Notes under the pieces: model-generated
The model's input: the letters and a program-made list of their open reading frames with translations, nothing else
Database searches by the model: none
Told to the model about the DNA's origin: nothing
IMG/VR virus record: IMGVR_UViG_3300043411_001213
Span: 1 to 55,986 of that record
Reading direction: 5' to 3' (one strand)
DNA: 55,986 bases
Source of the DNA: a virus
Program-made: the position numbers and the translations under genes
Part shown: piece after piece, positions 1,430-39,145 of the stretch
Layout of the letters: each line of letters begins with the position of its first letter
Position numbering within the stretch: position 1 is the stretch's first letter

Positions 1430-2140
1430 ATGAGTTGGACCTCTATTGAGGACCGTGTCGGTCAGAAATTTAACATGTTGACGGTGCTGGCTGTGCACTC
1501 GAAAGGTTTTCGAACAACGGAAGGCAGGTATGTTCAGGCGAGACTGTTGTGTCGCTGTGATTGCGGGACAGTGAAAGACATCCCTGCGGGCGCTGTCACT
1601 GGAGGTTATACAAAGTCTTGTGGGTGCTTAGATCGAGATATTTTAGTGGCGAGGAACACGACCCATGGTATGAGCAGTTTGCCGGAATATAAGTTATGGA
1701 AGGACATGAGGGCTAGGTGTAACAACCCCAGCAATAAGTTTTATTTTCGTTATGGCGGGAGAGGTATTTCGGTTTCCCCAGAATGGCAAAGTAGTTTTGA
1801 GAATTTCTACAAAGACATGGGGCCGAGACCTGCTCGTCGTATGTCTATAGAACGAATCGAAAATGACGGCCATTACTGTAAATCGAACTGCAAGTGGGCA
1901 ACGCCAATCGAGCAGGCAAACAACAGGAGCTCAACCAGGCTTGTCACATACAAAGGTAGTACGCAAAGCCTGTCAGCATGGTGCCGAGAACTAAATATTA
2001 ACCTTTCGACGGTAACGGGTAGGCTCGATGTTCACGGCTGGAGCGTTGAAGATGCATTCGGGACTCCAACCCGCAAGGGGTTCGTCGAACGAAATAAAAC
2101 AAAGAACGCAGTTGCGCCCGTCGATGAGGGTATTTTATGA
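1430..2140 (+). CDS. HNH/AP2-type homing-endonuclease-like protein
   Basis: A 236-residue member of a widespread phage family with the order: N-terminal RVGQKFNMLTVL, CRCDCG and KSCGCLD cysteine pairs, then YKLWKDMRARCNNP, YGGRGISV, and the family block SIERIENDGHY followed by NCKWAT, then a C-terminal helix-turn-helix-like part (SLSAWCRELNINLSTVTGRL). Such genes are usually annotated as HNH-like endonucleases that spread by cutting neighbouring DNA. The frame is open upstream to a GTG at 1232, but AGGAG at 1416-1420 fixes the start at 1430 and the upstream part is the structured region. It ends by a 4-base overlap (ATGA) with the primase-helicase start. A/T-richer codon use than neighbours suggests separate acquisition. 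Confidence 0.8.
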   Translation: MSWTSIEDRVGQKFNMLTVLAVHSKGFRTTEGRYVQARLLCRCDCGTVKDIPAGAVTGGYTKSCGCLDRDILVARNTTHGMSSLPEYKLWKDMRARCNNPSNKFYFRYGGRGISVSPEWQSSFENFYKDMGPRPARRMSIERIENDGHYCKSNCKWATPIEQANNRSSTRLVTYKGSTQSLSAWCRELNINLSTVTGRLDVHGWSVEDAFGTPTRKGFVERNKTKNAVAPVDEGIL

Positions 2141-5073
2141 CAATGTATTTTTACTACCAGGAGACCCCGCGCTCTGTGTGGCTCCCTGCGCTCGCCAGTG
2201 AGCGTGCAAACATCATTCGTACAAAAAAGCCGGCGCTGTGCACTGTGCTTGACGTGGATTCAACGTTTGAAGACGGTATGACACAAGAGCAGCGGGCGTC
2301 TGTAAAGCACGCAGGTCCGCTGTACTTCGATGTGGATTGTCCAGATATTGATACGGCAATCGAGCAGACTAAAAAGTTGCTCACACTGATCAAGAGCAAG
2401 GGGGTCGACCTTGAGATGCTCAGGTGTTACATGAGTGGAAAAAAGGGGTTCCACATCCTAGTGGATCACGCCATCTTCATGCCAAGAGTTCCTGCGGGTG
2501 GAATACATAACCTGCCGACCATTTACAAAGAAATGGTCTGGGCCTGTCTCTTTACTGACGGCGTTGACATGAGGGTGTTCAGCCAAGGTCGTGGTCGGAT
2601 GTTGCGCTCCCCAAATGTGCAGCGCGATGACAATGGAGCGTACAAGGTCAGCGTCACGGCTGATGAAATCTTCAACCTTACGCCGGAAACCTACGCCCAA
2701 CTCTGCGCTTCGCCGCGCAACGAGGTACCGGTCGAGCCCCCGAAGTTTTGCCCGGAGCTCGGCCTTGCCTTCAGCGTGGCCCAGGACAAGGTCGTCAAGG
2801 CGGCTGCTCGGCGCAAGACGAAGAAGAACCAGTGCGATGACCTGAAGAAATTCGGCGGTGCATGGCCAGAGACCCTGCAGTTGGTGATCAACGGCCTTGG
2901 CCTGCGTGAGGACGTGGGCTTCAATCAGGTCGCGCTTCAGGTTTGTATCACGGCATGCACCCTCGGCATTGATGAGGAAAAGCTGCTTGCCGACTGCTCC
3001 GGCCTGATCGAAACCCACAAGGGTGACTCGTCCCGCTACGGCACCCCGGGTCGTCGCCGAGCATTCCTCAAGGAGATGTTCCGCTACGTCGACAGCAACC
3101 CGCTCTACGACTTCTCTGCCGGCGGCGTCCTCTCCCTGCTCATCCCCGAAGTCCGTGCCAACTCTGATCTCAGCTTTGGTGAGTGGCAACCAGACGACAC
3201 GACACCGAAGCCGAAGCCGAAGAAGCCTACCAAGCCGAAACCAGCCCCCGCTGAAGGTGCAGCAGAAACGACTACGACCGAAGCCGAAACAACTACGGAC
3301 GAGGACGAAGACGAGGGTGAGCCTGAAGACGACGAACCGGATGACGGCGGGCGTATTCAGATGAGCCGCGGCGGCACATTTTTTAAAACTGAGGACGGCT
3401 ACAAAAATGTGTGTGACCTCGGGTTTTTCAGGCCGATCAGCATGCGCAAACTGAACGGGGAACATATCGGCTACGAGGTCGACACCTATCTGGATGGCAA
3501 GGATGCCGGCAAGAAATTCATTCCGATGAACGCGTTCACATCAAAGGGCCAGTTCAACAACTGGTCCCTCAATCAGGGAGCCTCGATGAGAGCCTCAGAC
3601 ATTCAAACCAGTAGCCTGTCGGATCACTTCCGCAGGCGCAGCAGTAAAAACCCTGTCTATGCCGTTGAGCGCGAGGGGATCGACGTCATTGTTCCTCCTG
3701 GTGCCAAGACCGGTGACCAGATCGATGTAATTTGGGCATCCCCGGAAGGGGTCGTGTGCGAGAACAAGGAGATCAACTACCGTTACCACGGCATCTACAA
3801 CGCCCAAGGGACGTATAAATCGGACCTGATGATGGCCGACGAGTTGTCACTGGCCGACGAGGAATTTGTCAGCAAGCTGCTCGACATCAACACGACAGGG
3901 AACGTGGCGAAGCTCCTCGGTTGGTTCAGTGCTGCGTTCGTCAGTCAGCTGATCCGCAAGAAGTTCAAGCGCTTCCCATCCATGCAGGTCTTCGGACAGG
4001 CTGGCGCCGGCAAGTCGATGACCGTCATCCTCATGAACCACATGCACTACAACCTCGTCGAGCCTCGTCAGTTCTCTGTTGCCGGTCAGACGATGTTCCC
4101 CATCATCGTTGCGGTCGCCACATCGGCGTCTCTGCCGCTGGTGTTCGAGGAGGTCAAGGCCCGTCAGCTGACGAAGACGGCCAAGGACTTTCTGCAGAAC
4201 ATCCTGCGGTCGAACTACACAGCCGACCAACTTCAGCGAGGCAGCCTTGGTCGTGACAAGACAGTGCGTGAGCCAACGGTCACCGACTTCGCCAATGCCG
4301 CACCGATCGTGTTTGTCGGTGAGGCGATCGAGGACCAGAGCGCGATTCTGGAGCGGTGCGTGGTCGTGGCCCTGAGCAAATCCGATCAACGGGGCAAGGA
4401 GGCAAACTTCGAGTTCTGCATGGATCGGGCGACGCAAATGGGTCGCATTGGAAAGCGCCTTGCCCGTGCGGCATTGAGCGTTAATCGTGACGAGCTGCAC
4501 GAAGAGCTGAGCCGGAACTTCAAACAGGTCTCCGGTCTGGCTCAGGCTGCGATGATTGACGGGGCCTCACGCCCGTCATTCAACCTGGCTGTGGTCATCA
4601 CAGGTCTCGAGTTCCTGCGCCTTGCCATCTCCGGTGTCTTTGGCGATAAGTTCGATGGGCGCATCGAAAAGCTCAAGCAGTCCGTGCTCGACAACGTTGC
4701 CGACAACATCCCGAAGAACATGGCAGAAGCGAGTCGTGTTCTGGATACACTGGCCTTCCTCAGTCGGCATCAGGACGTCGCCTATCAGGTGGTTCATGGT
4801 GTCGACTACACAATCAACGAGCCCGCCGGAACGCTCGATCTCAAGCTGCGCAATGCGTACGCCAAGTACGTCAAGTATCAGCGCAGCCTAGGCATGGAGG
4901 TGCTGTTCGACCACGAGAACGCTTTCGTCACTGCGCTGGCCAATTATGGCGGCACGGTGCGCAAGGCCTGCCCTGACAACATGCACTTGTACGACTCACC
5001 ACGAGCCGTCATCTACCGCCTCGACCTCGCCTATTTGGAGCGTGAGGGCGTGGATGGTTTCAAGGAGAAGTAG
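2137..5073 (+). CDS. AEP-type primase fused to AAA+ helicase (978 aa)
   Basis: Makes RNA/DNA primers and unwinds DNA at the phage fork. The N-terminal third is an archaeo-eukaryotic primase: the metal-binding FDVD at residues 64-67 and SGKKGFH at 100-106 (the family's sGxxGxH nucleotide-binding motif). A Pro/Lys then Glu/Asp-rich low-complexity linker (about residues 355-405) leads to the C-terminal ATPase with Walker A GQAGAGKS at 620-627 and a VFEEVK acidic segment as likely Walker B, reminiscent of DUF927-type phage helicases. Start ATG at 2137 overlaps the endonuclease stop. It sits between the helicase and the possible ssDNA-binding gene, consistent with being the replication initiator/replicative helicase. 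The primase motifs are convincing; the helicase subfamily is less certain. Confidence 0.85.
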   Translation: MTMYFYYQETPRSVWLPALASERANIIRTKKPALCTVLDVDSTFEDGMTQEQRASVKHAGPLYFDVDCPDIDTAIEQTKKLLTLIKSKGVDLEMLRCYMSGKKGFHILVDHAIFMPRVPAGGIHNLPTIYKEMVWACLFTDGVDMRVFSQGRGRMLRSPNVQRDDNGAYKVSVTADEIFNLTPETYAQLCASPRNEVPVEPPKFCPELGLAFSVAQDKVVKAAARRKTKKNQCDDLKKFGGAWPETLQLVINGLGLREDVGFNQVALQVCITACTLGIDEEKLLADCSGLIETHKGDSSRYGTPGRRRAFLKEMFRYVDSNPLYDFSAGGVLSLLIPEVRANSDLSFGEWQPDDTTPKPKPKKPTKPKPAPAEGAAETTTTEAETTTDEDEDEGEPEDDEPDDGGRIQMSRGGTFFKTEDGYKNVCDLGFFRPISMRKLNGEHIGYEVDTYLDGKDAGKKFIPMNAFTSKGQFNNWSLNQGASMRASDIQTSSLSDHFRRRSSKNPVYAVEREGIDVIVPPGAKTGDQIDVIWASPEGVVCENKEINYRYHGIYNAQGTYKSDLMMADELSLADEEFVSKLLDINTTGNVAKLLGWFSAAFVSQLIRKKFKRFPSMQVFGQAGAGKSMTVILMNHMHYNLVEPRQFSVAGQTMFPIIVAVATSASLPLVFEEVKARQLTKTAKDFLQNILRSNYTADQLQRGSLGRDKTVREPTVTDFANAAPIVFVGEAIEDQSAILERCVVVALSKSDQRGKEANFEFCMDRATQMGRIGKRLARAALSVNRDELHEELSRNFKQVSGLAQAAMIDGASRPSFNLAVVITGLEFLRLAISGVFGDKFDGRIEKLKQSVLDNVADNIPKNMAEASRVLDTLAFLSRHQDVAYQVVHGVDYTINEPAGTLDLKLRNAYAKYVKYQRSLGMEVLFDHENAFVTALANYGGTVRKACPDNMHLYDSPRAVIYRLDLAYLEREGVDGFKEK

Positions 5074-6171: not shown

Positions 6172-6217
6172 TAGAAGCAACATCAGAAGAATGACAACAA
6201 GGAAAGGTGTAAACAGT

Positions 6218-6883
6218 ATGAGATTTTTCTTCGGTGACGTCGAAACGACAGGCCTGCGAAAACCGGCCAAAATCGTGGAACTGTGCGTTGTTGAGACAGA
6301 CGATCAGTTCAATGTGCTGAATACATGGGAAAGCAGGATCGATCCCGAAGCACCCATAGAGCCTGGAGCCAGTGGTGTGCACGGCCTCACCAACGCCATG
6401 TTGGTCGATGAGCCGACCATAGAGCAGTTCATGGAAATGCACGGTTATCCGTTGCGAACTGACGGCGTGCTCATCGCCCACAATGTCGCATACGACCGAG
6501 AGTTCCTCGGCCCGCACTTCGAATCCTACGAAACAATCTGCACTCTGAAGTGTGCCCGCATCCTTTATCCGGACGCGCCAGATCACAAGCTGCAGACGCT
6601 TCGATTCTATCTCGGCTTGGAAGCAGACCACAGCAAAGCGCACACTGCCGGTGAAGACGTATCGCTGCTCATGCAGCTGGCCAAGAAGATGTGCGAGGAT
6701 CATGATCTGACCCTGTCCGCTCTCCTCGAAGTTCAGACCCGCAAGCGCCGCATACTCAATATGCCTTTCGGGAAACATAAAGGAACCGCCCTGAGCGACC
6801 TGCCGGCAGACTACAGGTACTGGCTCCTGAACAAGGCCGACAATCTTGACGCTGACCTGCGGGCCTCTCTGGAGGCACTGTAA
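6218..6883 (+). CDS. DnaQ-like 3'-5' exonuclease with DUF3820-like tail
   Basis: DEDDh-family exonuclease: motif I GDVETTGL at the N-terminus, motif II HNVAYDREF, motif III HTAGEDVSLL. These place the acidic metal ligands and catalytic histidine expected for proofreading-type nucleases. After residue ~175 a short domain MPFGKHKGT...LPADYRYWLLN matches the pattern of DUF3820, often found fused to such exonucleases in phages. I use the ATG at 6218 because the catalytic domain starts immediately and AAGG lies 9-15 bases upstream; an in-frame ATG at 6191, 20 bases after the leader hairpin, would add nine residues. The polymerase at 10321 has its own 3'-5' exonuclease, so this one more likely acts in repair or end processing. 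Confidence 0.85.
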   Translation: MRFFFGDVETTGLRKPAKIVELCVVETDDQFNVLNTWESRIDPEAPIEPGASGVHGLTNAMLVDEPTIEQFMEMHGYPLRTDGVLIAHNVAYDREFLGPHFESYETICTLKCARILYPDAPDHKLQTLRFYLGLEADHSKAHTAGEDVSLLMQLAKKMCEDHDLTLSALLEVQTRKRRILNMPFGKHKGTALSDLPADYRYWLLNKADNLDADLRASLEAL

Positions 6884-7074: not shown

Positions 7075-7440
7075 ATGCTATCCCTTGACGACGTTGAGTT
7101 CTGGTCTGACGTGCCAGATGAGGTTCTTCCAGAAATCAAGCTGTGGGCCGACGTGATGTTTGTTGGACTCTATGATGCCGCGTGTTACAGAGGCTGCAGC
7201 TTGGGCAAGATAAAGCCCTCGTCCGGTGACAATCGCAAAGCCCGCAGCCAGGCTTGGTGGTGGCTTTTCGATGATGGAAAGAGCGACGTCGGCAGTTTCG
7301 TGTGGTGTTGCCGCTTGTTTGACTATGACCCTACGCAGACCAGAAACAGAGTCATAAACAGGTGGGAGGACATCGTCAAAGAGCAGTTGAAGTTCAGCAA
7401 CAAAATTGGCAAAGGCAGTTCAAATGGCTTATGCGAATAA
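7075..7440 (+). CDS. Phage protein of unknown function (121 aa)
   Basis: Begins MLSLDDVEFWSDVPDEVLP. The pattern 'KARSQAWWWLFDD....SDVGSFVWCCRLFDYDPTQTRNRV' is one I recognise from small phage proteins in which a Trp-rich segment is followed by a Ser-Phe-x-x-Cys helix and an Asp-Pro turn; no function is known to me. No clear Shine-Dalgarno sequence precedes the ATG, which follows an A/C-rich leader. The C-terminal 17 bases overlap the start of the HNH gene, and the tail (residues ~112-121) may have been altered by that insertion. Soluble, no membrane segment. Confidence 0.6.
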   Translation: MLSLDDVEFWSDVPDEVLPEIKLWADVMFVGLYDAACYRGCSLGKIKPSSGDNRKARSQAWWWLFDDGKSDVGSFVWCCRLFDYDPTQTRNRVINRWEDIVKEQLKFSNKIGKGSSNGLCE

Positions 7441-8356: not shown

Positions 8357-9231
8357 TGTCACGAGAACTCGACTACGTTGTCGAGCGCCTCACTTTTCTG
8401 CTCCGCATGCATCACAAGGGCAGCAAGGTGAGGCGATTGACATATCGAAGCCTGCCACTACTCACCGACACCATGTTTGACCATGTCAACCTATCCAGCG
8501 TCATGTCTCCGGCAACTCCGAAGACGGCGATCGAGGCTGAGCAGTTGTTCGACGCCTTTCTGTACCCATTGATTGATGGGTCCGGGGATTCGGCGAGCGA
8601 GCTCGAGATTGCCGGGGGCGCTGCTCTAACAGAGTGGGTGATGCGCGGAGTGACGTTTGGAGAGCAGGTTGTGCGCCTGCTCTTCGCTGTTTCGAACGTC
8701 GACGGGGTCAGGCGTGTAATCGATGACAGAACCTTCACGGTCATGTTCGAAGATCGCACGTTCGGCATCCGGGACGGAAAAACAGTTTCCCGCTTCTGCA
8801 CAGGGATTGACATTGATGCCGCCCCGCTGGACATCCTGACACGAACAGAGGAGGTGCGAAGCTTTGACCACAACTTCTGCTCACTCTATCGGGAGGCGTA
8901 CCGACGAGGGCAAAAATGCGTGAATGCGATCGTGACCCTGCACATGTTGAATCCGAAGTTTGGGTTCAAGAAGTTGGCTGATCGAAGTCGGGCATTAAAA
9001 GTGCCGACCGAAGGCAAGATCGGCAGTTGGGAACGAACCCTGCTCACTTCCAGGGACCCAGTTGTTGAAATGTACCGAAAGCTTGTGCCGGTGTGGATGA
9101 CCTCTGGAGAATTCAGGCGGGTGTTCGGAAGCATTGAAAAACGCAAGATAAAACCGTCCGAAATGGACATCGCAACCCTCATCACCAAAATGCATCACCA
9201 CTTCCATAAGAATAAGGAAAAACAACAATGA
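8356..9231 (+). CDS. Uncharacterised protein (291 aa)
   Basis: Starts at the ATG overlapping the MazG stop (TGATG). The protein appears soluble and mixed alpha/beta, with no recognisable nucleotide-binding, metal-binding or nuclease motif. The C-terminus is strongly basic and histidine-rich (MHHHFHKNKEKQQ), compatible with nucleic-acid binding. A helical middle segment (LYREAYRRGQKCVNAIVTLHML) and a possible winged-helix-like end (SGEFRRVFGSIEKRKIKPSEMDIATLI) are visible. It is translationally coupled to MazG upstream and, by ATGA, to the dNMP kinase downstream, so a role in nucleotide or DNA metabolism is likely but unproven. Confidence 0.6.
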   Translation: MSRELDYVVERLTFLLRMHHKGSKVRRLTYRSLPLLTDTMFDHVNLSSVMSPATPKTAIEAEQLFDAFLYPLIDGSGDSASELEIAGGAALTEWVMRGVTFGEQVVRLLFAVSNVDGVRRVIDDRTFTVMFEDRTFGIRDGKTVSRFCTGIDIDAAPLDILTRTEEVRSFDHNFCSLYREAYRRGQKCVNAIVTLHMLNPKFGFKKLADRSRALKVPTEGKIGSWERTLLTSRDPVVEMYRKLVPVWMTSGEFRRVFGSIEKRKIKPSEMDIATLITKMHHHFHKNKEKQQ

Positions 9232-9767
9232 ATCTTATCGGAATCACCGGCAAGGCCCGTAGCGGCAAGGATACTGCAGCCCGTCACCTTGTCGTGAATC
9301 ACGACTTTGTCCGTCTCGCTTTTGCCGACCCGCTCAAACAGGCGGCACAGGAGATCTTCGGTCTCACCGCAGAACAGACGTGGAGCGATGACCTCAAAGA
9401 AGTCATGATCCCGCGCTGGGGTATGACCCCCCGCAAGATATTCCAACTGCTCGGCACCGAATGCATGAAGCCTTTCTTCGGTGAGGACATGTGGATCAAG
9501 CGACTGGACATCAACTACGACATCCTCAAGGACAGCGACAACGTCGTGGTCACGGACGTACGCTTCGACCCGGAGGCTGACTACATCCGCAGCAAGGGTG
9601 GCATCATCGTCGAGGTTCGCCGCGGCGACGGCCTCGCTGGCGAAGCTGGCAGCCACGCTTCCGAACGAGGTCTGCGCCTGCCACCCGACATGATCATCGA
9701 CAACTTCGGCACGATCGAGGATCTCCACGACGCCGTCGACGGCCTGATCACTATGTTCGGTGCCTGA
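9228..9767 (+). CDS. Deoxynucleoside monophosphate kinase
   Basis: 179 residues with an N-terminal P-loop GKARSGKDT, as in T4 gene 1-type dNMP kinases and related phage enzymes that convert dNMPs to dNDPs with ATP. Further family features are FADPLKQAAQEIFGL near residue 35, the DVRFDPEADYI segment after the central strand, and a C-terminal DNFGTIEDLHDAV stretch. It overlaps the preceding gene by ATGA and is adjacent to MazG, which fits a nucleotide supply role for phage DNA synthesis in the cytoplasm. Coding region and family assignment are both clear; nucleotide specificity cannot be read from sequence. Confidence 0.85.
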   Translation: MNLIGITGKARSGKDTAARHLVVNHDFVRLAFADPLKQAAQEIFGLTAEQTWSDDLKEVMIPRWGMTPRKIFQLLGTECMKPFFGEDMWIKRLDINYDILKDSDNVVVTDVRFDPEADYIRSKGGIIVEVRRGDGLAGEAGSHASERGLRLPPDMIIDNFGTIEDLHDAVDGLITMFGA

Positions 9768-9768: not shown

Positions 9769-10029
9769 ATGCACATCGAAGACAATGAGAAGTGTGCCGA
9801 CCCGCTGGATCACGCGAGCAAGATCGCCGATCAACATGCGAGTGACAAGGTCAAGGAGATCAGCCGTCTTGCTGCCCCAGAACAGGTTCAGAACCCTGAT
9901 GGGTCGTGGCCTGTGACGGAATGCGTGACATGCGGGGATGACCTGATCCCGGCACGCCTGGCCCACGGTTTTATCCGCTGTGTCCCGTGCAAGAGCAAGC
10001 TGGAAAGGCTCAAAAATGGACTGGGTTAA
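9769..10029 (+). CDS. DksA/TraR-type zinc-finger protein
   Basis: An 86-residue protein with N-terminal helices and a C-terminal four-cysteine zinc finger: CVTCGDDLIPARL, then RCVPCKSK, spacing C-x2-C-x17-C-x2-C. This is the C4 finger of the DksA/TraR family, whose small phage members may bind RNA polymerase or simply be uncharacterised zinc proteins. The start is the ATG just after the kinase stop; its 3' end overlaps the next gene by 14 bases. It lacks the long coiled coil and the DxxDxA tip of true DksA, so regulation of transcription is only a possibility. Confidence 0.7.
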   Translation: MHIEDNEKCADPLDHASKIADQHASDKVKEISRLAAPEQVQNPDGSWPVTECVTCGDDLIPARLAHGFIRCVPCKSKLERLKNGLG

Positions 10030-10321
10030 AGCAAAGCTTGTTCGTGCTGCTGCGATCAAATCGATGCAGGACCAGCTTGAGCAGGCAGAACCGATTGGTC
10101 TGCCTCTCTGGCTGGTGTCGCTGATGATGACCCCGGTGTTCCTTGGCACGATCGCAATTGCCCTGTTTCGAATGATCTTCGGCATGATCGTGTCGATGCT
10201 TGAACACGCGTTCTGGTTCATCGCCTCGCCGTTCGTTTCGATCTACTTGTGGTGCGACCTCGTGATCGTGTCGTGGTGGTACTTCGGCTGTTTGTGCCGG
10301 AAATTTGCAGGAGAAAAATAA
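10016..10321 (+). CDS. Small integral membrane protein in replication operon
   Basis: 101 residues beginning MDWVKAKLVRAAAIKSM, with GGAAAGG nine bases or so upstream of the ATG at 10016. Two strongly hydrophobic spans are visible: LPLWLVSLMMTPVFLGTIA running into LFRMIFGMIV, and FWFIASPFVSIYLWCDLVIV followed by SWWYFGCLCRKF. The N-terminus is an amphipathic, basic helix. No family is recognised. Its stop codon shares a base with the start of the polymerase gene, so the two are co-translated. This raises the possibility of membrane association of the replication complex, which the sequence alone cannot show. Confidence 0.65.
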   Translation: MDWVKAKLVRAAAIKSMQDQLEQAEPIGLPLWLVSLMMTPVFLGTIAIALFRMIFGMIVSMLEHAFWFIASPFVSIYLWCDLVIVSWWYFGCLCRKFAGEK

Positions 10322-13233
10322 TGACAACACTGCTGGTTGATGTTTCAAGTCTGCTCTGGCAATCGCTGCTTGTTGGCGAGAGCAAGGAGCATGGGTGTAA
10401 GGTCGAATTCAACGGCAAGACGGTGAACGTCAACGGATGGGAACACGGTTACGATTGCGCCATGAGCCACCTGACCGTGGTCATGGGCGAGGTCGAGGTC
10501 ACGTCCCGTAACACCATCTTCGTCGTTGAAGGCAAGATGTCGAAGGCTCGGCGCAAGGCTATCTACGGGGGCTACAAGGACACGCGTGAATCCCGCCCGC
10601 CGGAAGCCTATGTCGAGTTCGAGAAGTGCAAGGAAGCGCTGGTCAAGGAATTCGCCGCTCGCGGTGCCACGATCGTCACCCAAGACGGTGCCGAGGGTGA
10701 TGACACACTGGCCTACCTGACGTCAGTCATTGAGGGCGACATCGTCATCCTGACCCGTGACGGTGACATGACGACGCTGGTCGACGATCGTGTCAGCCTG
10801 TACCAGAATGGTCGCCTGACCAAGGAAAACAAGTACGGCCCGTTCCCCTGCAAGTTCACGCCGATCTACAAGGCGTTGATCGGTGACGGTGACGAGTACA
10901 AGGGTGCCAAGGGGTTCGGCCCCAAGGCATTCCTCGACTTCCTCGTATGGGCCGGAGACCCGGGCCTTGCCGCATTGGAAGGCATGATCAAGCGCCGCAC
11001 CCTGCAAGAACTGGCAGAGGACGTGGCTGAGTTCAAGCCCCTGCAGAAAATCATCGACAGCGAGCAACACGTCTATGAAAGCTACGAGTGCGCCCTGCTC
11101 CACCCTGAGTGGGTCAATCACCCTCGCCAGCCGTTGCAGGTGGTGCGCGGTGACAGTGCCGAATGGTGGGACAAGCTGAACCCACCGGCAGCACCGAAAT
11201 ACACTGCACCGAAGAACCACGCCATTTTTGACTGCGAACTGATCGGCACCGTTAATCCGGTGTTTCTCGTTTGCATGCACGTGCTGGAAACCGGCGAGCG
11301 GCAATCCTTCTGGTGGCACGTCGAAGGTGACATGGATCGTCTGCAGGCACAGCTCGAACGCCAGGACCTGATCTGGGTCAGCTTCAACGGCATTCACTTC
11401 GACCAGCCCATCATGTCGGCAGCGCTCGGTGGCAAGACCCCGACCATGCTCAAGTCCATCGCCAATGAACTGATCCACGGCGATGGCAAGGCGTGGCAGA
11501 TATACGACCAGTTTCGCTTCGACAAGGTTGAGTTTGATCATATCGACCTCATGGAAGTCAGCCCGGGCGTCAAGATTTCTCTGAAGACCTTTGCCGGTCG
11601 CATGGGATACCCGACGATGGTTGACATGCCGTTCGACCACAACAAGGATCTCAGCGCTGAAGAATGTGTTGTGCTGGAGAACTACTGCCAGAACGACCTT
11701 GGTGTCACTGAGTGGCTGTTCAAAGCGCTGCGTTCGGAAGTCGAACTACGCAAGGAGATGAGCGAGGAGCACGGCATTGACCTGCGTTCGAAGTCTGACG
11801 CGCAGGTTGCCGAAGCGATTCTCAAGAAGGTGGCCAACATCAAGGGTCGCGCTGGACACACCCCGAGCTACGTCACCTACACGGCCCCGAAGTTCATCGA
11901 GACCTATAGCCAGACCATCCAAGGCATCGTTGAGCGGGTCGAAGCCACCACGTTCCTGATCAACCCGGCGAACGGCATGGTCCAGTCTCCGGAGTTTCTC
12001 GAGGAGCCGGTGCAACTCGGTCACGGCACCTATCAGATGGGGGTCGGCGGACTGCACTCGACACACGACAAGTGCCTGTACGTGGAAGCGGACGAGGAAA
12101 TGTGCATCTCAGACTTCGACGTCGCTTCGTACTATCCGAACATCATGCTCAAGGCGGGTCTGACGCCGCGGCTTGATGGTGGGGCTGGCGATCGGTTCAT
12201 TGCCGCGTATCGGGATATTTACGATCGTCGTATCGATGCCAAGCGATCTGGAAATAAGAAAATTGCGAATTCTCTTAAAATTGCGCTAAATGGCACGTTT
12301 GGCAAACTCGGCTCGCCCTATTCATCTTTCTATTCACCGGACCTGATGTTGGCCGTGACCATGACCGGGCAGTTGAACCTTATGTGCTTGATTTTCGACC
12401 TGGAATTCAATCCTGAGATCAAGGTTTTGTCGGCCAACACTGACGGCATAGCTATTCACTACCCTGCTCGATTGCGCGATCGGGTGCTCAAGGTCGTGCT
12501 TGAAAATGCCAAGCGTACCGGGTTCGAGTACGAGGAGACTCGTTACGCCAAGATCGCTATGAAAGACGTCAACAACTATCTGGCGGTTACGGTCGATCTG
12601 CCGACGGCGACCCTGATCTCTGGGGTCGACGGCATCATCGAAAAGGCCCCCGGCTATGTGAGCGTCAAGCGCAAGGGTCTCTATGCCAGCACCGGTTTGA
12701 TGAAAAACCCGACGATGGAGGTCTGCAGCAACATGGCAGTCGATTATCTGAAGGACGGAATCCTGCCGGCTGATGCCGTTAAGAAGTACGGCAACATGCG
12801 CGACTTCGTCGCTATCCGCAACGTCAAGGGTGGCGGCATCCAGTACGACCAGATCGTTGAGGTCGACGACTGGGTGCTGGTCAACGACCTTGGCACCAAG
12901 GACAACGAGTGGAAACGCCAGGCATGGATCGATGCCGGTCTGGATCGCGCCCCGGTCAAGCGCAAGTCGTGTCCTGCCCCCGTTGAAATTGGGGTCGGTG
13001 GCGAGGCTTTTGGCCGGATCGCCCGCTGGTACATGCAGAAGGACGGCAAGATGCCAATCAACTACGTCGGCTCTGGCAATCGGGTTCCGAAAACCGAAGG
13101 CGCGAAGCTATGCATGACGTTGCCTGATTCGCTGCCTGACGACCTCGACCTTGATTGGTATGTTTCAGAGGCGTTGTCGATCCTGAAAGATATCGGTGTC
13201 AATCTTGAATCACAAGGAGAAGAACAAGAATGA
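10321..13233 (+). CDS. Fusion of 5' nuclease (FEN) and family B DNA polymerase
   Basis: One uninterrupted 970-residue frame. Residues ~1-270 are a FEN/Pol I-type 5' nuclease: LLVDVSSLLW (D7), RRKAIYGGYKDTR (helical gateway), GAEGDDTLAYL (E125, D127, D128), LTRDGDMTTL (D147, D149) and GDGDEYKGAKGFGPKA (188-203, helix-hairpin-helix). Residues ~295-470 are a 3'-5' proofreading exonuclease: FDCE (303-306), SFNGIHFD, YCQND (Y455, D459). The polymerase follows: motif A DFDVASYYP (D600), motif B KIALNGTFG (K653), motif C SANTDG (D708), then KRKGLY as a KKRY-like element. A 5' nuclease is usual with family A polymerases, not with family B. AGGAG at 10310-10314 fixes the start. Confidence 0.9.
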   Translation: MTTLLVDVSSLLWQSLLVGESKEHGCKVEFNGKTVNVNGWEHGYDCAMSHLTVVMGEVEVTSRNTIFVVEGKMSKARRKAIYGGYKDTRESRPPEAYVEFEKCKEALVKEFAARGATIVTQDGAEGDDTLAYLTSVIEGDIVILTRDGDMTTLVDDRVSLYQNGRLTKENKYGPFPCKFTPIYKALIGDGDEYKGAKGFGPKAFLDFLVWAGDPGLAALEGMIKRRTLQELAEDVAEFKPLQKIIDSEQHVYESYECALLHPEWVNHPRQPLQVVRGDSAEWWDKLNPPAAPKYTAPKNHAIFDCELIGTVNPVFLVCMHVLETGERQSFWWHVEGDMDRLQAQLERQDLIWVSFNGIHFDQPIMSAALGGKTPTMLKSIANELIHGDGKAWQIYDQFRFDKVEFDHIDLMEVSPGVKISLKTFAGRMGYPTMVDMPFDHNKDLSAEECVVLENYCQNDLGVTEWLFKALRSEVELRKEMSEEHGIDLRSKSDAQVAEAILKKVANIKGRAGHTPSYVTYTAPKFIETYSQTIQGIVERVEATTFLINPANGMVQSPEFLEEPVQLGHGTYQMGVGGLHSTHDKCLYVEADEEMCISDFDVASYYPNIMLKAGLTPRLDGGAGDRFIAAYRDIYDRRIDAKRSGNKKIANSLKIALNGTFGKLGSPYSSFYSPDLMLAVTMTGQLNLMCLIFDLEFNPEIKVLSANTDGIAIHYPARLRDRVLKVVLENAKRTGFEYEETRYAKIAMKDVNNYLAVTVDLPTATLISGVDGIIEKAPGYVSVKRKGLYASTGLMKNPTMEVCSNMAVDYLKDGILPADAVKKYGNMRDFVAIRNVKGGGIQYDQIVEVDDWVLVNDLGTKDNEWKRQAWIDAGLDRAPVKRKSCPAPVEIGVGGEAFGRIARWYMQKDGKMPINYVGSGNRVPKTEGAKLCMTLPDSLPDDLDLDWYVSEALSILKDIGVNLESQGEEQE

Positions 13234-13793
13234 TGAACAACATCATGTTGGATCTGGAAACCATGGGCAACGGCCCGATGGCGGCCATCGTCGCCATCGG
13301 CGCCGTTGAGTTCGACATTGGCACTTGCGAGCTTGGGCGTGAGTTCTATCGCGTCGTTGATCTGGAGTCGTCCATGCGCCTCGGCGGTGTTGTGGACGCA
13401 TCCACCGTCATGTGGTGGCTGGGTCAAAGCCTTGAGGCCAGATGCGGTATCAACCCGAAATTCGGCAAGTGCTCGCTCTCGAACGCATTGATTGATTTTC
13501 GAGGTTGGGTGATGCAAGGCGTTGAAGACTTTGACGATGTACTGATGTGGGGCAACGGAGCCACATTCGACAACGTGATCCTGTCCTCGGCCTATCGAAA
13601 CGCCGAACTGGAGCGCCCGTGGCGTCACTGGGGTGATCGCTGCTATCGCACGGTGAAGTCGTTCTTCCCGCAGACACCGATCGAGCGCATTGGCGTACAT
13701 CACAACGCACTCGACGACGCGAAAAGTCAGGCTCTGCACCTGATCGAAATGATCGGTCAGAAACCTGACATTTCCGACCAAAGTGTGCAGTGA
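13230..13793 (+). CDS. DEDDh 3'-5' exonuclease, Rv2179c/ExoVIII-like
   Basis: 187 residues. MLDLETMGNGPMAAIVAIGAV carries motif I (DxE); NGATFDNVILSSAY carries motif II; HHNALDDAKSQALHLI carries motif III with the catalytic His and Asp. This arrangement matches the RNase T superfamily group containing Rv2179c-like and RecE/ExoVIII-related phage exonucleases. It overlaps the polymerase stop by ATGA and so is made with it. It is the third DEDD exonuclease of the window, after 6218 and the polymerase's own domain. Likely DNA end trimming or RNA removal; the substrate is not deducible. Confidence 0.8.
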   Translation: MMNNIMLDLETMGNGPMAAIVAIGAVEFDIGTCELGREFYRVVDLESSMRLGGVVDASTVMWWLGQSLEARCGINPKFGKCSLSNALIDFRGWVMQGVEDFDDVLMWGNGATFDNVILSSAYRNAELERPWRHWGDRCYRTVKSFFPQTPIERIGVHHNALDDAKSQALHLIEMIGQKPDISDQSVQ

Positions 13794-14011
13794 TGCAGAC
13801 CCGCCTGATGTCCCTGATCGAGACCCTGACAAACATCGCAGTCGGTCTCGTCATCAGCCTGATCTCTCAGCTGGTGATCTTCGGCGCCTACGGCATTGAG
13901 TTGTCGTTCGGGCAGAACGTCCAGATCGTGCTGTGGTTTACCGCCATCAGCATCGTCAGGAGCTATGCATTGAGGCGCGTTTTCAATCGTTTCGTCAGGA
14001 AGCCATCATGA
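13793..14011 (+). CDS. DUF7220-like small membrane protein
   Basis: 72 residues, MQTRLMSLIETLTNIAVGLVISL onward. The pattern 'SLIETLTNIAVG...AYGIELSFGQNVQI...ISIVRSYALRRVFNRF' matches a phage protein group I know as DUF7220: two hydrophobic helices and a basic C-terminal RSYALRRxFNR. Function unknown. The ATG overlaps the exonuclease stop (TGATG), and the end overlaps the next start, so it is embedded in the replication operon. It is the second small membrane protein next to the polymerase gene. Confidence 0.7.
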   Translation: MQTRLMSLIETLTNIAVGLVISLISQLVIFGAYGIELSFGQNVQIVLWFTAISIVRSYALRRVFNRFVRKPS

Positions 14012-14484
14012 AAAAGTACTCTTTGGAATGGTGGCAGGCCCAGCCCCCGGAGAAGGTCGGCAAGGAGACCGAGAAGATCGTCGAGAAGCTGTTCATCGAG
14101 TGGAATCACAGTCAGGCATTCGCCTGGCACCGCATGCCAGACGCTCGTGCCGCCCGTGGTCGACTCGCTGCCCAGCCTGCTGACTATCTGTACCGGTGCG
14201 GCGAACACGCAGGCTTCATAGAGGTCAAGGCACTGAAACACGAGTACCGGCTGCCCAAGGATCGGGTCAGCCAATTGCCGACGCTTCTCAAGTGGAACCT
14301 CGCTGGCAGCGACGACCTGATCCTAGTGTTTCACTACATGATCGGGAAGTGGCGCTGGATGTTTCCGCACCAACTCGAAACAGACGTCCCATCTTGGGAC
14401 TTGTCCTGTTTCGTGACGTTTGACAGTGCCGAGGAGGCGCTGAAATCAACTGGTTATTTCAACGTAGGAGAACAAGAAGAATGA
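14008..14484 (+). CDS. PD-(D/E)XK nuclease, RecU-like resolvase candidate
   Basis: 158 residues starting MKKYSLEWWQAQ, with AGGAAG upstream. The core RMPDARAARGRLAAQPADYLY, then AGFIEVKAL (E-x-K) and LPKDRVSQLPTLLKW reproduces the D...ExK...Q layout of RecU-type Holliday junction resolvases and related phage nucleases. A following strand pattern LILVFHYMIGKWRWM is also typical. It lies between the exonuclease and the DNA ligase, consistent with resolving branched replication intermediates before packaging. The nuclease fold is well supported; resolvase activity is inferred from family resemblance. Confidence 0.75.
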   Translation: MKKYSLEWWQAQPPEKVGKETEKIVEKLFIEWNHSQAFAWHRMPDARAARGRLAAQPADYLYRCGEHAGFIEVKALKHEYRLPKDRVSQLPTLLKWNLAGSDDLILVFHYMIGKWRWMFPHQLETDVPSWDLSCFVTFDSAEEALKSTGYFNVGEQEE

Positions 14485-15350
14485 GCCAATTCAAACCCCT
14501 TTTGTCTGCCACCATCGAGGACACCGCATCGCTGCGCTACCCAGTGCTGGTCAGCACCAAGCTCGACGGCATCCGATGCCTCGTCATTGACGGCGTGGCG
14601 TGTAGCCGCAACCTGAAGCCAATCCGCAATGCGTATATTCAGAAGTGCATCGGCAAGCCCGAGTACAACGGCCTCGACGGCGAGCTCATCGTCGGCAACG
14701 TCTTTGCCAAGGACTGTTACCTGAAGACCAACTCCGGCGTGATGTCTGCCGACGGCGAGCCCGACTTCAAGTTCCACGTCTTCGATCGTTTCGATATGGG
14801 CCCGTTCCACTTCCGCACCCGCTTCGAGCGGATTCCAAACCTGCCGTTCGTCGAGATCGTGCCGCATTGGGAAGTCTCCTCGGAGATTCAACTGCTCGAT
14901 CTCGAGGCCGAGTTGCTGGCCAAGGGCGCGGAAGGCGTCATGGTTCGCAGCATTGACGGCGCCTACAAGATGGGCCGCAGCACAATCAAGGACGGCATTC
15001 TGGGCAAGCTGAAGCGCTTTGCCGATGCCGAGTACAAGGTTATTGGTTTCCAGGAAAGGATGCACAATGCCAATGAAGCCACAGTCAATGCTCTCGGCCA
15101 CACTGAGCGTAGCAGTCATAAAGAAAACAAGGTCGGTCGGAATGACCTGGGAGCCCTCATTTGTGAAACGCCTGATGGGCAGCAGTTCAACTGCGGGACA
15201 GGTTTTGACGACACCCTTCGCACTGAAATTTGGACGAACCGGGACGCGTACATGGGCAAGTTTGCCAAGATCAAGTCGTTCCTGATCGGGGTCAAGGACC
15301 TGCCCAGATTCCCCGTGTTCTTGGGGTGGCGTGACCCGATCGACGCATGA
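14481..15350 (+). CDS. ATP-dependent DNA ligase
   Basis: 289 residues. Motif I is STKLDGIR with the adenylated lysine at residue 27; motif III lies around DFKFHVFD, motif IV is EGVMVR, motif V is LGKLKRF, and the C-terminal oligonucleotide-binding part ends KFAKIKSFLIG...PRFPVFLGWRD, as in T7-like small phage ligases. It seals nicks using ATP and would join fragments left by the FEN-polymerase fusion. It overlaps the RecU-like gene by ATGA. Complete and of normal length for the minimal phage ligases. Confidence 0.92.
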   Translation: MSQFKPLLSATIEDTASLRYPVLVSTKLDGIRCLVIDGVACSRNLKPIRNAYIQKCIGKPEYNGLDGELIVGNVFAKDCYLKTNSGVMSADGEPDFKFHVFDRFDMGPFHFRTRFERIPNLPFVEIVPHWEVSSEIQLLDLEAELLAKGAEGVMVRSIDGAYKMGRSTIKDGILGKLKRFADAEYKVIGFQERMHNANEATVNALGHTERSSHKENKVGRNDLGALICETPDGQQFNCGTGFDDTLRTEIWTNRDAYMGKFAKIKSFLIGVKDLPRFPVFLGWRDPIDA

Positions 15351-15683: not shown

Positions 15684-15850
15684 AACTGTCAGAACAAATC
15701 GAGATGCTCGCAAGCCACCCGATGTACGTGCATTATTTTCGTATCGATAGCGACGGTGTTCAACTCGACGGCACATTCAATCTGGCGCAACTGGAACTGC
15801 TGGTGAGCCACATCAAAGAACATGGCTACAAGGAGATGGAAGCATGCTGA
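15680..15850 (+). CDS. Small uncharacterised protein (56 aa)
   Basis: ATG at 15680 within ATGA of the previous gene, GGAG upstream, and an end that overlaps the SbcD-like start as ATGCTGA. The translated product starts MKLSEQIEMLASHPMYVHYF and ends HGYKEMEAC; it has a beta-strand pair and a C-terminal helix, and no recognisable motif. Tight overlaps at both ends and a GC-rich third-position pattern support it as a real gene. Confidence 0.6.
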   Translation: MKLSEQIEMLASHPMYVHYFRIDSDGVQLDGTFNLAQLELLVSHIKEHGYKEMEAC

Positions 15851-16878
15851 TCATCAACGACCTACACATCGGTGTCACCCGCCAAGGCGGCACCACGCCG
15901 CAATCCCAACAGGCCCTGCGCGACCACCTTCGCGGCAAGGTTACCGAGTTAATCACCACCGAGTGGAACGAGGTCACGGTCAACGGTGACCTCTTCGACG
16001 GCTTTACGGTTGACGTTCTCGAAGTGGTTCGCACCTACGAGATGTTCGCCGACTGGCTGCACACCACCGGCGGCACGCTGAACCTGATCGCCGGCAACCA
16101 CGACTGGAATCCCCGTGGCGACAAACTGTCGTCGTTCCACCTGCTCTGCCACTTCCTGAAGTCCCACTTCGGTGAGAAGGTCCGCGTCTTCGACGATGGC
16201 TTTGCCCACGTCAGTGGCAATATCTGCTGCATTCCGCACATGCCGAATCAGGAACTGTTCAATATCGAGATTGACAAGGCGATCGAGAACGGTGGTGACG
16301 GCGGTTGGCTGCTTCTGCACTGTAACTACAAGAACACCTTCGCCGAGAATTCTGACCACAGCCTCAACCTGAATGACGACCAGATCGGCAAGTTGATCGT
16401 GGCAGGGTGGAAGCTGGTACTGGGTCACGAGCATCAAGGTTACGAGTTGCGTGGTGGTCGCGTGATCGTGGCCGGGAACCAGTTTCCGACCTCGATCTCT
16501 GACTGCATCGGCGAGAAAGGCAAGCGCTGCCTGCGCACCAACGGCGACGACATGGAGTTCGTCAAAACGTGGTCGCCGGCCGGTGAATATGTCGAGGTCG
16601 ATTGGCGAGACATGAGCATCGGCGATGCCGACTTTATCCGCGTCGTCGGTGAAGCGTCTGCTGTTGAAGCTGCCGACGTGATCAGTGCTATCTCCAAGCT
16701 GCGCCAGCAAGCAAATGCGTTCGTTATCACCAACGCCGTCAAGATTGCCGGCAACGAGGCGATGGCTGACATGGCCGAGGTCTCGCTCGAAAACGTGAAA
16801 GCTTACGACGTCATCGCAGCCATCATGGAACAGCTTGACGAGCGTGAGGCTGAAGTTGTGAAAGGACTGATGGCGTGA
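15844..16878 (+). CDS. sbcD: SbcD/Mre11-like metallophosphoesterase
   Basis: 344 residues with the calcineurin-type phosphoesterase motifs in order: NDLHIG (residues 5-10), NGDLFDG, GNHDWNPRGDK, LLLHCNYK and GHEHQGY. In SbcCD/Mre11-Rad50 and T4 gp47 this subunit is the manganese-dependent nuclease that trims DNA ends and opens hairpins, working with the ATPase partner, here the gene at 17611. It is normally followed directly by sbcC, but an endonuclease-like gene now separates them. Its C-terminus is helical, as expected for the segment that docks onto the SbcC coiled coil. Confidence 0.85.
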   Translation: MLIINDLHIGVTRQGGTTPQSQQALRDHLRGKVTELITTEWNEVTVNGDLFDGFTVDVLEVVRTYEMFADWLHTTGGTLNLIAGNHDWNPRGDKLSSFHLLCHFLKSHFGEKVRVFDDGFAHVSGNICCIPHMPNQELFNIEIDKAIENGGDGGWLLLHCNYKNTFAENSDHSLNLNDDQIGKLIVAGWKLVLGHEHQGYELRGGRVIVAGNQFPTSISDCIGEKGKRCLRTNGDDMEFVKTWSPAGEYVEVDWRDMSIGDADFIRVVGEASAVEAADVISAISKLRQQANAFVITNAVKIAGNEAMADMAEVSLENVKAYDVIAAIMEQLDEREAEVVKGLMA

Positions 16879-17627
16879 TTGAAGTAACTGTTCGATTCGG
16901 CGGTAAACCGGTCACGTTAATGATCAAAGATCATGGGATACCGCTCGGCACAGACAAAACTGCCGCTGAAATTTTCGAGGCTATGAGAAACAGCTTCCAC
17001 ATGACAAAACAGCGTTGCTACAACGAGAAATGCCCCGACTACCGCTATTACGGCGGGCGCGGTATTGTGGTGTGTGATCGATGGCTTGAGAGCCCGCTCA
17101 ATGTGTTGGCTGACATGGGGTTACGACCAAAAGCCTATACGCTGGAAAGGAAGAACAATGACGGCCCCTATTCGGTTGACAACTGCAAGTGGGCAACACG
17201 GGCCGCGCAAGGTCTGAATACGCGCCAAACAAAGTTGATCACCTATTGCGGAGAGACGCTCCCCGTTGCCGAGTGGGAAAGGAGGTCCGGCTTTAAGCCT
17301 GGCACTCTCAAAGCACGATTAGGGCCTCTCGGTTATAGCGTCGAAGAGGCGTTCTCGAAACAGGTCAAGTGCGGAGAACTGCTTTCAGGTAGGGAGTACC
17401 CGCATCTTGTAGATCAGTCGTGGCGAACTGTGGAGGCGATGCACGCTAACCCTCAGAAGCCTGTGCTTAGCAATGAGCAGATCGAGCATGTACGTCGCCT
17501 CCACTCTGAACTTGCAATGACATTCACAACAATCGGAAAACTATTTGGTGTTTGCACTCAAACTGCCTCAGAGGCGGTTCGTGGTGTTGGCACTTACGAG
17601 AGGATTGAATATGCTGCTGCGGCTTAA
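16875..17627 (+). CDS. HNH/AP2-type homing-endonuclease-like protein between sbcD and sbcC
   Basis: 250 residues of the same family as the gene at 1430: MTKQRCYNEKCPDYRYYGGRGIVVCDRW, then YTLERKNNDGPYSVDNCKWATRAAQGLNTR. Instead of the N-terminal cysteine pairs it has a different ~40-residue beginning. The C-terminal part (SNEQIEHVRRLHSELAMTFTTIGKLFGVCTQTASEAV) looks like a helix-turn-helix DNA-binding domain of the 'resolvase-like' type. It overlaps sbcD by ATGA and its last 17 bases overlap the sbcC start. Insertion exactly at the boundary leaves both neighbours intact. Base composition is A/T-richer than sbcC. Confidence 0.75.
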   Translation: MIEVTVRFGGKPVTLMIKDHGIPLGTDKTAAEIFEAMRNSFHMTKQRCYNEKCPDYRYYGGRGIVVCDRWLESPLNVLADMGLRPKAYTLERKNNDGPYSVDNCKWATRAAQGLNTRQTKLITYCGETLPVAEWERRSGFKPGTLKARLGPLGYSVEEAFSKQVKCGELLSGREYPHLVDQSWRTVEAMHANPQKPVLSNEQIEHVRRLHSELAMTFTTIGKLFGVCTQTASEAVRGVGTYERIEYAAAA

Positions 17628-19740
17628 ACTAACAAATTTCCGCAAGGTTCGCTCTGACGTGATGGAGTTCACACCAGGAATCAATTGCATCCGTGGTGCA
17701 AATGAGATATCCAAGACGACCCGAATTGAAGCTATTGCCTATGCCCTGTTCGGTAGCAAGGCGCTGCGCACCACGCTGGAGCAGACCGTCACCTGGGGCG
17801 AGGACGTGAAGTCGCTCATGGTCGACCTCGAACTCACCAGCGGCGGCATCGACTACGTCTTCAGCCGCAGCAAGGCTGGCGCCGAAGTCATCAAGGGCAA
17901 CACCGTCTTCATCACTGGCCAGAACGAGGTCAGCACCTTCGCTGCCACTCTGATCGGTGCCGACCAAAGCATCGCCTCTAACCTGATGTTTTCAGGGCAG
18001 GGGAACATCCGCGGCGCTCTTGAAGAAGGCCCCAAGGCGTTGTCGTCTCTGATCGAGGACCTTGCCGGTTTCACTGTCTTCGACGATATCCTTGAGCGTG
18101 CTCAAGAGAAACTGGCACTGGGCAGCCCCGCCCTGCTGGAGGAGCGCCTGAAAGGTGCTGAGTCCACGTTGGCGGCCGCGACCGAGTCCCTGCCGGTGAA
18201 GCCTGATGACGAAGCCTACCAAGCCTCGGTGACCGCCATTGCCAACAAGATGGCCGAGATCGAGTCGGGCATCCCTGAACTGAAGCGTGTCGCCGACGCT
18301 GCAGCCGAGAAGTTTTCTGCTGCCTCACAGGAGTTCAACGCCAACAACGTACTGGTCGCCGACATCGAACGGGCCGCTGCGCAGGTCGTACAGTGCGAAG
18401 GTCAGGCCGCCGGCTTCCGCGCCAATGCCGATAAGGTGGCACCTGATGTTGAAGGCTTGAAGGCTCAACTGCTGGAATCCGAGCAGTGGGACGCCCGTCA
18501 CGCGGCATATCAACTGTTCCTGCAGTTGAACCACAGCGTTGAACGGTTCGAGGGCACGATCACTGAGTTCATCCTGCACAAGGACAAGGTCTCTGGCGAA
18601 TTCAAGCGCAATTGTGACAAGCTGGTCGAGATCGACAACGCGATCAACGCTGCGCTGCGCAGGAGAATCAATCACGACAAGTGCGACAAGTGCGGGCAGG
18701 ATGTCACCCACCTGACACACGTCGTCGAAACCAATGTCACGGTCGACGCTGAGGTTTTGAAGTTGAAGGCCGACCGTGCCGTGGTCTCTGGCGAGATCGA
18801 TATGTTGTCCCCGCTCATGGCCGAGCTCGATGCTTGGCAAGCTGCCGAGAATCAGGATGCACGCATCCTCGCCAAGCTTGGCGGCTACGTGAATATTGAC
18901 AACAACTCTGTGCCTGCCCGTGTTTCGTGGATCGGCAGCGATCCTGGCACTGCCGGCCCGGACACCCGCGCTTACCGCACCGCCCTTGAAACGGCCCAGG
19001 CTGAAGTTCGTGTGATCGAACAGGCGAAGGCCAAGCTGGAACTGGTTCTCGGTCAGTTGGCAGACGCCAAGCAGAAGCATGCTGACCTGAAGGCGAAGCT
19101 TGACGCTTACACTGGGCCGAGCGCCGAAGACATCCTACGTCTGCAGGGCGAGAAGAACGACGCCGCTCTGGCCGTAACGGTCGCAGATGGCAACATCATT
19201 ATCGCTCGACGCGAGTTGGCGGACCTGACGACAGCGCATGAAGCTGGTGTCCGCATGTGGAACCTCGCCCAAGCTCGCGTGAGTGATGCCGAAAAGACCA
19301 TTGCCAGCACCAAGGCCGACCTCGAGTCCCTGTCGTTCAACAACGCTCTTGTCAAGAAGCTGCGCGCCATCCGCCCGATTGTTGCCAATCAGGTTTGGAA
19401 TTCTGTGTTGACCAGCGTCAGTGTCATGTTCAGCCAGATGCGCGGAGAAGAAAGCTGGGTCACCAAGGACAAGGGTGGCTTCTGCGTCAATGGTCAGGCG
19501 GTCGAGTCGCTTTCCGGCAGCACGCTGGATATCCTCGGTGTCGCCCTGCGTGTCGCCCTGATGAAGACCTTCATGCCTGAATGCAGCCTGCTTGTGCTCG
19601 ACGAGCCGGCACAAGGTTGCGACCAAGTCCGTACCGAGGCCCTGCTCGGTTTCATTGCTGCGAGCGGCATTGGGCAAACCGTTCTGATCACACACGAGGA
19701 CGTGTCCGAGTCCGTGGCCGACAACCTGATTGAGATCTGA
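17611..19740 (+). CDS. sbcC: SbcC/Rad50-like ATPase with altered Walker A
   Basis: 709 residues beginning MLLRLKLTNFRKVRSDV, with GAGAGG upstream. It is the SMC-like partner of the SbcD homologue: N- and C-terminal ATPase halves separated by coiled coils and a zinc hook CDKC at 358-361. The signature region reads SLSGSTLDILGVALR, Walker B LLVLDEPAQGCD, and a switch His in LITHED. The Walker A motif is unusual: GANEISKTT (29-37) where GxxGxGKS/T is expected, so both conserved glycines are replaced while Lys35 and Thr36 remain. ATP-dependent processing of double-strand breaks or replication ends is the expected role. Whether the altered P-loop binds ATP normally is open. Confidence 0.85.
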   Translation: MLLRLKLTNFRKVRSDVMEFTPGINCIRGANEISKTTRIEAIAYALFGSKALRTTLEQTVTWGEDVKSLMVDLELTSGGIDYVFSRSKAGAEVIKGNTVFITGQNEVSTFAATLIGADQSIASNLMFSGQGNIRGALEEGPKALSSLIEDLAGFTVFDDILERAQEKLALGSPALLEERLKGAESTLAAATESLPVKPDDEAYQASVTAIANKMAEIESGIPELKRVADAAAEKFSAASQEFNANNVLVADIERAAAQVVQCEGQAAGFRANADKVAPDVEGLKAQLLESEQWDARHAAYQLFLQLNHSVERFEGTITEFILHKDKVSGEFKRNCDKLVEIDNAINAALRRRINHDKCDKCGQDVTHLTHVVETNVTVDAEVLKLKADRAVVSGEIDMLSPLMAELDAWQAAENQDARILAKLGGYVNIDNNSVPARVSWIGSDPGTAGPDTRAYRTALETAQAEVRVIEQAKAKLELVLGQLADAKQKHADLKAKLDAYTGPSAEDILRLQGEKNDAALAVTVADGNIIIARRELADLTTAHEAGVRMWNLAQARVSDAEKTIASTKADLESLSFNNALVKKLRAIRPIVANQVWNSVLTSVSVMFSQMRGEESWVTKDKGGFCVNGQAVESLSGSTLDILGVALRVALMKTFMPECSLLVLDEPAQGCDQVRTEALLGFIAASGIGQTVLITHEDVSESVADNLIEI

Positions 19741-39112: not shown

Positions 39113-39145
39113 TCATCGTGTCACTTGAATGAAAGCATACTAAGA

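Follow-up and report, generated by a model that had tools for sequence, protein, structure and literature searches.

The window analysed here (55,986 nt, positions 1 to 55,986 of the IMG/VR virus record IMGVR_UViG_3300043411_001213) contains a gene whose single product combines a 5' nuclease with a proofreading family B DNA polymerase (PolB). Its frame runs unbroken from the ATG at 10321 to the stop codon at 13233, encodes 970 amino acids (aa) and is laid out as follows, L001 and L262 being two further contigs described below.

10309..10313, plus strand: ribosome-binding site AGGAG upstream of the ATG at 10321, read from the sequence
10321..13233, plus strand: fusion of a 5' nuclease, a DEDDy 3'-5' exonuclease and a family B DNA polymerase, 970 aa, assigned from profiles, models and the homologues on L001 and L262
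10321..11136, plus strand: 5' nuclease domain of the FEN/T5/Pol I type (aa 1-272), assigned from Pfam PF02739, invariant columns, model, VIA and Foldseek; catalytic carboxylates D7, E70, E125, D127, D128, D147, D149, D189 and E192
11137..11211, plus strand: interdomain linker, the swap joint (aa 273-297), delimited by alignments, shuffle tests and low pLDDT at 281-297
11212..11817, plus strand: DEDDy proofreading exonuclease domain (aa 298 to about 499), assigned from a DNA_pol_B_exo2 match and the invariant motifs D304/E306, N356/D361 and Y455/D459
11818..13230, plus strand: family B polymerase domain (about aa 500-970; D600, K653, D708), assigned from PHROG 1252, a 16-sequence alignment, Foldseek and VIA

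A 5' nuclease and a family B polymerase in one frame

The original prediction, made from the letters of the window, placed a 5' nuclease and a family B polymerase in one frame, and profile and fold matches obtained separately for each half bear this out. In the nuclease half, residues 61-165 match Pfam 5_3_exonuc_N (PF02739; E 2.4e-13, 50.6 bits against a gathering cut-off of 34.3) and residues 4-208 match PHROG exonuclease family 107 (E 5.6e-18), while the NCBIfam models of DNA polymerase I (Pol I) match the fusion protein at 58-208 only. The N-terminal part thus does match 5' nuclease profiles, the lack of which had been named beforehand as a reason to abandon the claim. Scanning with the nuclease domain as a single query sequence gave no matches, and the members of its subfamily came from profile scans. 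Residues D7, E70, R78, Y85, K86, E125, D127, D128, D147, D149, D189, G195 and G200 are invariant in the nine members aligned. This set comprises every nuclease motif residue proposed from the sequence (D7, E125, D127, D128, D147 and D149) and, with D189, G195 and G200, agrees with the proposed helix-hairpin-helix, which is of the H3TH type. We take the invariant residues to include the metal-binding carboxylates of T5 exonuclease. One carboxylate has changed from Asp to Glu, namely E192, which is Glu in all three PolB fusions and presumably corresponds to D204 of T5 exonuclease.

The remainder of the protein is a complete exonuclease-polymerase unit. Residues 294-968 match PHROG 1252 (DNA polymerase) over positions 48-661 of 663 (E 4.6e-148), residues 344-467 match DNA_pol_B_exo2, and the NCBIfam Pol II/pol2 models match the polymerase part only; a PDB sequence search by itself returned only weak PolB matches. 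The predicted catalytic motifs are all present in an alignment of 16 PolBs, where D304/E306 (ExoI), Y455/D459 (ExoIII), D600 (motif A) and D708 (motif C) are invariant, as are N356/D361 (ExoII), and K653 (motif B) is nearly so. The motif C sequence SANTDG (704-709), by contrast, had been singled out as unusual. Since it is invariant in all the PolBs aligned, it is the norm of the family, and we discarded it as a peculiarity of this protein.

The AlphaFold2 model of the full chain (69-row alignment) reaches a mean pLDDT of 90.3 and a pTM of 0.69, with lower values across linker residues 281-297. Folded alone, the nuclease domain scores a pLDDT of 94.7 and a pTM of 0.91, and this model matches ExoIX (Foldseek E 3.0e-10), T5 FEN, T4 RNase H and the nuclease of Taq Pol I; in VIA comparisons, residues 1-284 align with T5 5'-exonuclease at Z 21.6 and with E. 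coli ExoIX at Z 21.3. For the polymerase part, residues 290-969 align with pol alpha, KOD and RB69 at VIA Z 14.8-16.1, and the best Foldseek matches are KOD/9N/RTX (E about 1e-14). The conserved residues together with these confident models suggest that the protein would possess 5' nuclease, proofreading and polymerase activities.

It might be argued that the 5' nuclease is catalytically unimportant and serves as a DNA-binding or structural stand-in for the usual N-terminal domain of PolBs, given that PolBs of this type lack that domain and start directly at ExoI, and that the position of T5 D204 is, on our mapping, occupied by Glu in every fusion. We consider this unlikely, because the remaining carboxylates, along with R78, Y85 and K86, are invariant or nearly so in both the PolA-type and the PolB-type members of the nuclease subfamily (PolA denoting the family A polymerase), and because substitutions at codon positions 1 and 2 of the nuclease part are fewer than those at position 3.

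Recurrence of the fusion in other contigs

The search for other genomes with both domains covered 2.9 million viral contigs and recovered two, which have the junction in common. The first, L001 (IMGVR_UViG_3300010372_000038), carries the same fusion in one open frame (65% identity over 1-962), with a PF02739 match of 51.5 bits. The second, L262 (IMGVR_UViG_3300022744_000034), encodes a third fusion of 1011 aa (51-53% identity overall), whose nuclease is 49% and whose PolB part is 55% identical to those of the window. Domain order and joint are alike in all three, and the linkers differ in length. No internal start codon at the junction is conserved in frame across the fusions.

The window is a metagenomic contig, and there is no isolate of this phage, which leaves room for the suspicion that an assembly or sequencing error merged two separate genes. 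We give it practically no credence: L001 and L262 come from other IMG/VR samples and carry the same open-frame fusion with different linkers, third-position substitutions predominate in both halves, and a proper ribosome-binding site precedes the gene. The frame break near the junction that, according to the original prediction, other sequences might reveal is absent from both contigs, which rule out an assembly chimera.

Among sequenced phages, matches to the PolB part occur in 975 records, not one of which covers 80% of the query; no fusion was found in this set at the search sensitivity used. The nuclease is matched by 25 sequenced-phage records, and those examined hold either a Pol I-type gene or a shorter one.

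Origin of the two halves and the swap joint

The two halves have different relatives. Profile scans enlarged the nuclease subfamily by about 45 members, including two bacterial contigs (one of them Variovorax paradoxus, L201), and all those with a complete, unsplit frame are fusions to a 3'-5' exonuclease and PolA, that is, of Pol I type. The PolB half groups with the stand-alone PolBs L002-L014, to which it is 53-58% identical. The genes surrounding the fusion, including the ligase that had been predicted a little downstream, are listed below together with the block that is foreign to L289, a Pol I-type relative.

2137..5073, plus strand: primase, replication cluster
6191..6883, plus strand: DnaQ-like exonuclease, replication cluster
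9228..9767, plus strand: deoxynucleoside monophosphate kinase (dNMPK), replication cluster
11140..14169, plus strand: region foreign to L289 (exonuclease-PolB core, Rv2179c-like gene and intergenic stretch), delimited by blastn, with a sharp left and an approximate right edge
13230..13793, plus strand: Rv2179c-like 3'-5' exonuclease (Pfam PF16473, E 9.9e-51), whose start codon overlaps the polymerase stop
13933..14484, plus strand: Holliday junction resolvase-like gene, common to the Pol I-type lineage
14481..15350, plus strand: ATP-dependent DNA ligase, common to the Pol I-type lineage
15844..16878, plus strand: SbcD-like nuclease subunit, replication cluster
17545..19740, plus strand: SbcC-like subunit, replication cluster

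The genome backbone is that of Pol I-type phages. Three of these (G030, G033 and G035) have TerL, portal, protease, capsid and tape measure in common with the window, and the cluster primase, DnaQ exonuclease, dNMPK, polymerase, resolvase, ligase, SbcD and SbcC stands in largely the same order. The closest named TerL relatives include SHOU24, PMBT3 and K478b, whose polymerases are of Pol I type or carry a related nuclease. Judged by the sequences of its virion genes and replication genes and by gene order, the window phage belongs to the siphovirus-like lineage of SHOU24/PMBT3 type, with genomes of ~80-90 kb. What phages with a stand-alone PolB have in common with the window is mainly the PolB and the Rv2179c-like gene, which lies directly downstream of the PolB in L004, L014 and G006; the other shared genes are scattered (nucleotide metabolism, ligase, HNH and small genes).

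At the DNA level, the exchange can be delimited by comparison with L288 and L289, whose nucleases are 63% identical to that of the window and which both carry PolA cores. The similarity between the window and L289 (blastn) extends from 10321 to 11139 inside the gene, stops there, and resumes only at 14170 in the resolvase gene, which argues that the exonuclease and PolA core were swapped for an exonuclease-PolB core while the nuclease was kept, and that the foreign block begins in the linker and takes in the PolB core, the Rv2179c-like gene and the intergenic stretch. The linkers of L001 and L262 are longer than that of the window and resemble the linkers of Pol I-type relatives: the score of 48 for L001 against L215 was reached by 0/5000 shuffles, that for L001 against L288 by 1/10000, and that for L262 against L291 by 10/10000. 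As read from the alignments, the linker of the window has been shortened.

Because the nuclease and the backbone are of Pol I type and the PolB half belongs with stand-alone PolBs, the core appears to have been replaced inside a Pol I-type gene. A different course of events, in which a PolB phage acquired the fusion by linking a stand-alone 5' nuclease gene to the 5' end of its PolB gene and no PolA core was replaced, could draw on the stand-alone 5' nucleases of about 350 aa that exist in phages and on the presence of the same PolB in PolB-only phages. It is, however, very unlikely. The position of the nuclease inside the Pol I-type subfamily in the trees strongly disfavours it, the genome otherwise belongs with those of Pol I-type phages, what remains of the linker in L001 and L262 is similar to that of Pol I-type proteins, and PF02739 was found in 0/27 PolB-only records. 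The predicted fusion therefore stands, with its origin revised from the joining of a nuclease gene to a PolB gene to a Pol I-type gene whose exonuclease and PolA core has been replaced.

The joint has served more than once. The tree of the nucleases joins L262 to the PolA-type L291 (100/100, 71% identity) and places the window and L001 with the PolA-type L288 and L289; monophyly of the PolB fusions is rejected (p-AU 9e-42). With the fusions separated in this way, two changes are needed, and the joint has been used at least twice. A single origin of all PolB fusions had been suggested by the first trees and was rejected once L288, L289 and L291 were included. There is also a sign that PolA cores have been exchanged at the nuclease linker: L288 and L289 are 65% identical in the nuclease and 41% in the exonuclease-PolA core, and L288 and L291 are 49% identical in the nuclease and 61% in the core.

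Several observations weigh against this account or narrow it. In the PolB tree, the three fusion cores may form one clade (p-AU 0.53); taken with the nuclease tree, this means either two captures of PolB or a single captured core that was spread by intragenic recombination at the joint, and the two courses are equally possible. In the window itself no resemblance to a Pol I-type linker is left, so that the linker evidence comes from L001 and L262. Neither L001 nor L262 showed an Rv2179c-like gene adjacent to the polymerase; that gene may therefore be a partner of PolB acquired separately. Finally, the relative orientation of the nuclease and PolB halves is uncertain in the full-chain model, given its pTM of 0.69 and the poorly predicted linker.

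At the sequence level, the architecture, the catalytic residues, the shared junctions, the backbone lineage, the swap boundary and the repeated use of the joint are established. Taking the evidence as a whole, we regard the fusion as very probably genuine, a hybrid enzyme that replicates the DNA of a tailed phage and that was made by replacing the core of a phage DNA polymerase I.

Some related polymerase genes are themselves broken. In three Pol I-type members (L216, L290 and L292), the polymerase frame stops after about 450-475 aa, within the exonuclease domain, and in L290 and L292 the PolA part lies 2-3 kb downstream, the gene being split or interrupted. Among stand-alone PolB genes, about 500 bases near motif B break the frame in L275 (5047-5563) and L276 (5086-5554). 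No Rfam intron was found in the split PolA genes (L216, L290, L292) or in the interrupted PolBs (L275, L276).

Elsewhere in the window, a small open reading frame on the plus strand just before the polymerase (9980-10321) is 27-35% conserved in L001, L215, L288 and L289. Another plus-strand frame (7406-8356) matches HNH endonuclease profiles (about 45-160) and then a MazG-like pyrophosphatase (190-313), and represents either a fusion of HNH with MazG or a mazG gene into which a homing endonuclease has inserted itself. Two HNH endonuclease genes that share their PHROG families also lie in the replication region on the plus strand, at 1232-2140 and 16875-17627, the latter between sbcD and sbcC. 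A 629-aa HNH/homing endonuclease-like gene (39125-41014, plus strand) lies amid minus-strand virion genes, and its relative in L262 adjoins the portal gene.

Proposed function and relation to known systems

We propose that the ancestral gene would have encoded a 5' nuclease, a linker, a 3'-5' exonuclease and a family A polymerase, and that recombination at the linker would have exchanged the exonuclease-PolA core for an exonuclease-PolB core of the PHROG 1252 family, with which the 5' nuclease stayed in frame. The division of labour would be that of Pol I: while the polymerase extends and displaces a strand, the tethered FEN-type nuclease would clear the lagging strand of RNA primers or 5' flaps, and the phage ligase (14481-15350) would then seal the nick. 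The core may be exchangeable because the linker joins the two activities without a fixed interface, and the nuclease may have been retained because Okazaki-fragment processing still needs it.

Were the fusion a repair or auxiliary polymerase, host enzymes would replicate the phage, and the SbcCD and resolvase genes nearby could be read in this sense. This is quite improbable, as no other polymerase was found among the scanned genes of the window, and as the neighbours of the gene are primase, dNMPK and ligase, the setting in which the only identified polymerase of the relatives is located.

Returning to a replicative role, we lean cautiously towards regarding the 5' nuclease as a fixed chassis and the core as an exchangeable cartridge, which is PolA or, at least once and perhaps twice, PolB, inserted each time at the same linker; the PolB versions would then be the first family B enzymes from nature whose single chain carries out nick translation and removes primers in the manner of Pol I. 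Such fusions allow one to ask experimentally if the nuclease of Pol I depends on being paired with a family A polymerase or can function when attached to any polymerase. Sequence and models also predict a naturally occurring family B enzyme that combines proofreading with the action of a 5' nuclease, which could be useful for nick translation and probe-hydrolysis assays.

As had been supposed at the outset, the combination of 5' nuclease, DEDDy exonuclease and PolB has apparently not been described before, no 5' nuclease-PolB fusion having been found in the open-access literature searched. The available parts of the PolB survey of Kazlauskas et al. (PMC7544198) mention fusion to helicase-primase and make no mention of a 5' nuclease-PolB fusion, nor do the available parts of a domain-shuffling survey (PMC10684548). 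The HelPrimPolB replicases (for instance GP55, lactococcal phage 1706; PMC12205980, PMC7544198) are likewise multi-domain family B phage replicases, but with PolB joined to a helicase and a primase and not to a 5' nuclease.

Compared with DNA polymerase I, the fusion protein has the N-terminal 5' nuclease, but no match to the family A domain PF00476, which two Pol I-type relatives match strongly. The Pol I of phages SHOU24, PMBT3, Lana and K478b has the same or a near nuclease subfamily, the same place in the replication order and similar virion genes around it; these proteins, of about 1,100-1,300 aa, are built as 5' nuclease, exonuclease and PolA, with their own exonuclease and family A core in place of the exonuclease-PolB core. 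That core is the same as in the PHROG 1252 PolBs of Achromobacter AXY1, Acinetobacter Loki and Pseudomonas NP1 (34-36% identity over about 298-959), which in our alignment have the motif C SANTDG of the fusion, but which are stand-alone proteins of about 600-680 aa without a 5' nuclease.

In situ swaps of whole polymerase genes among families A, B and C, sometimes together with neighbours, have been described by Yutin et al. 2024 (PMC11348598), in whose main text neither 'fused' nor 'fusion' occurs, and replacement of PolA and PolB in place, with conserved neighbours, is known from crAss-like phages (PMC7886860). The window resembles these cases of Caudoviricetes in having a different polymerase family on the same backbone with conserved neighbours. 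However, whereas the described swaps exchange a whole gene, here the crossover lies inside the gene (at 11139), the nuclease part was kept and a hybrid was left. Whole-gene swapping being already known, the core swap within a polymerase gene, giving a nuclease-PolB hybrid, appears to be new, and it extends polymerase swapping to the level of domains, below that of the entire genes exchanged in earlier descriptions.

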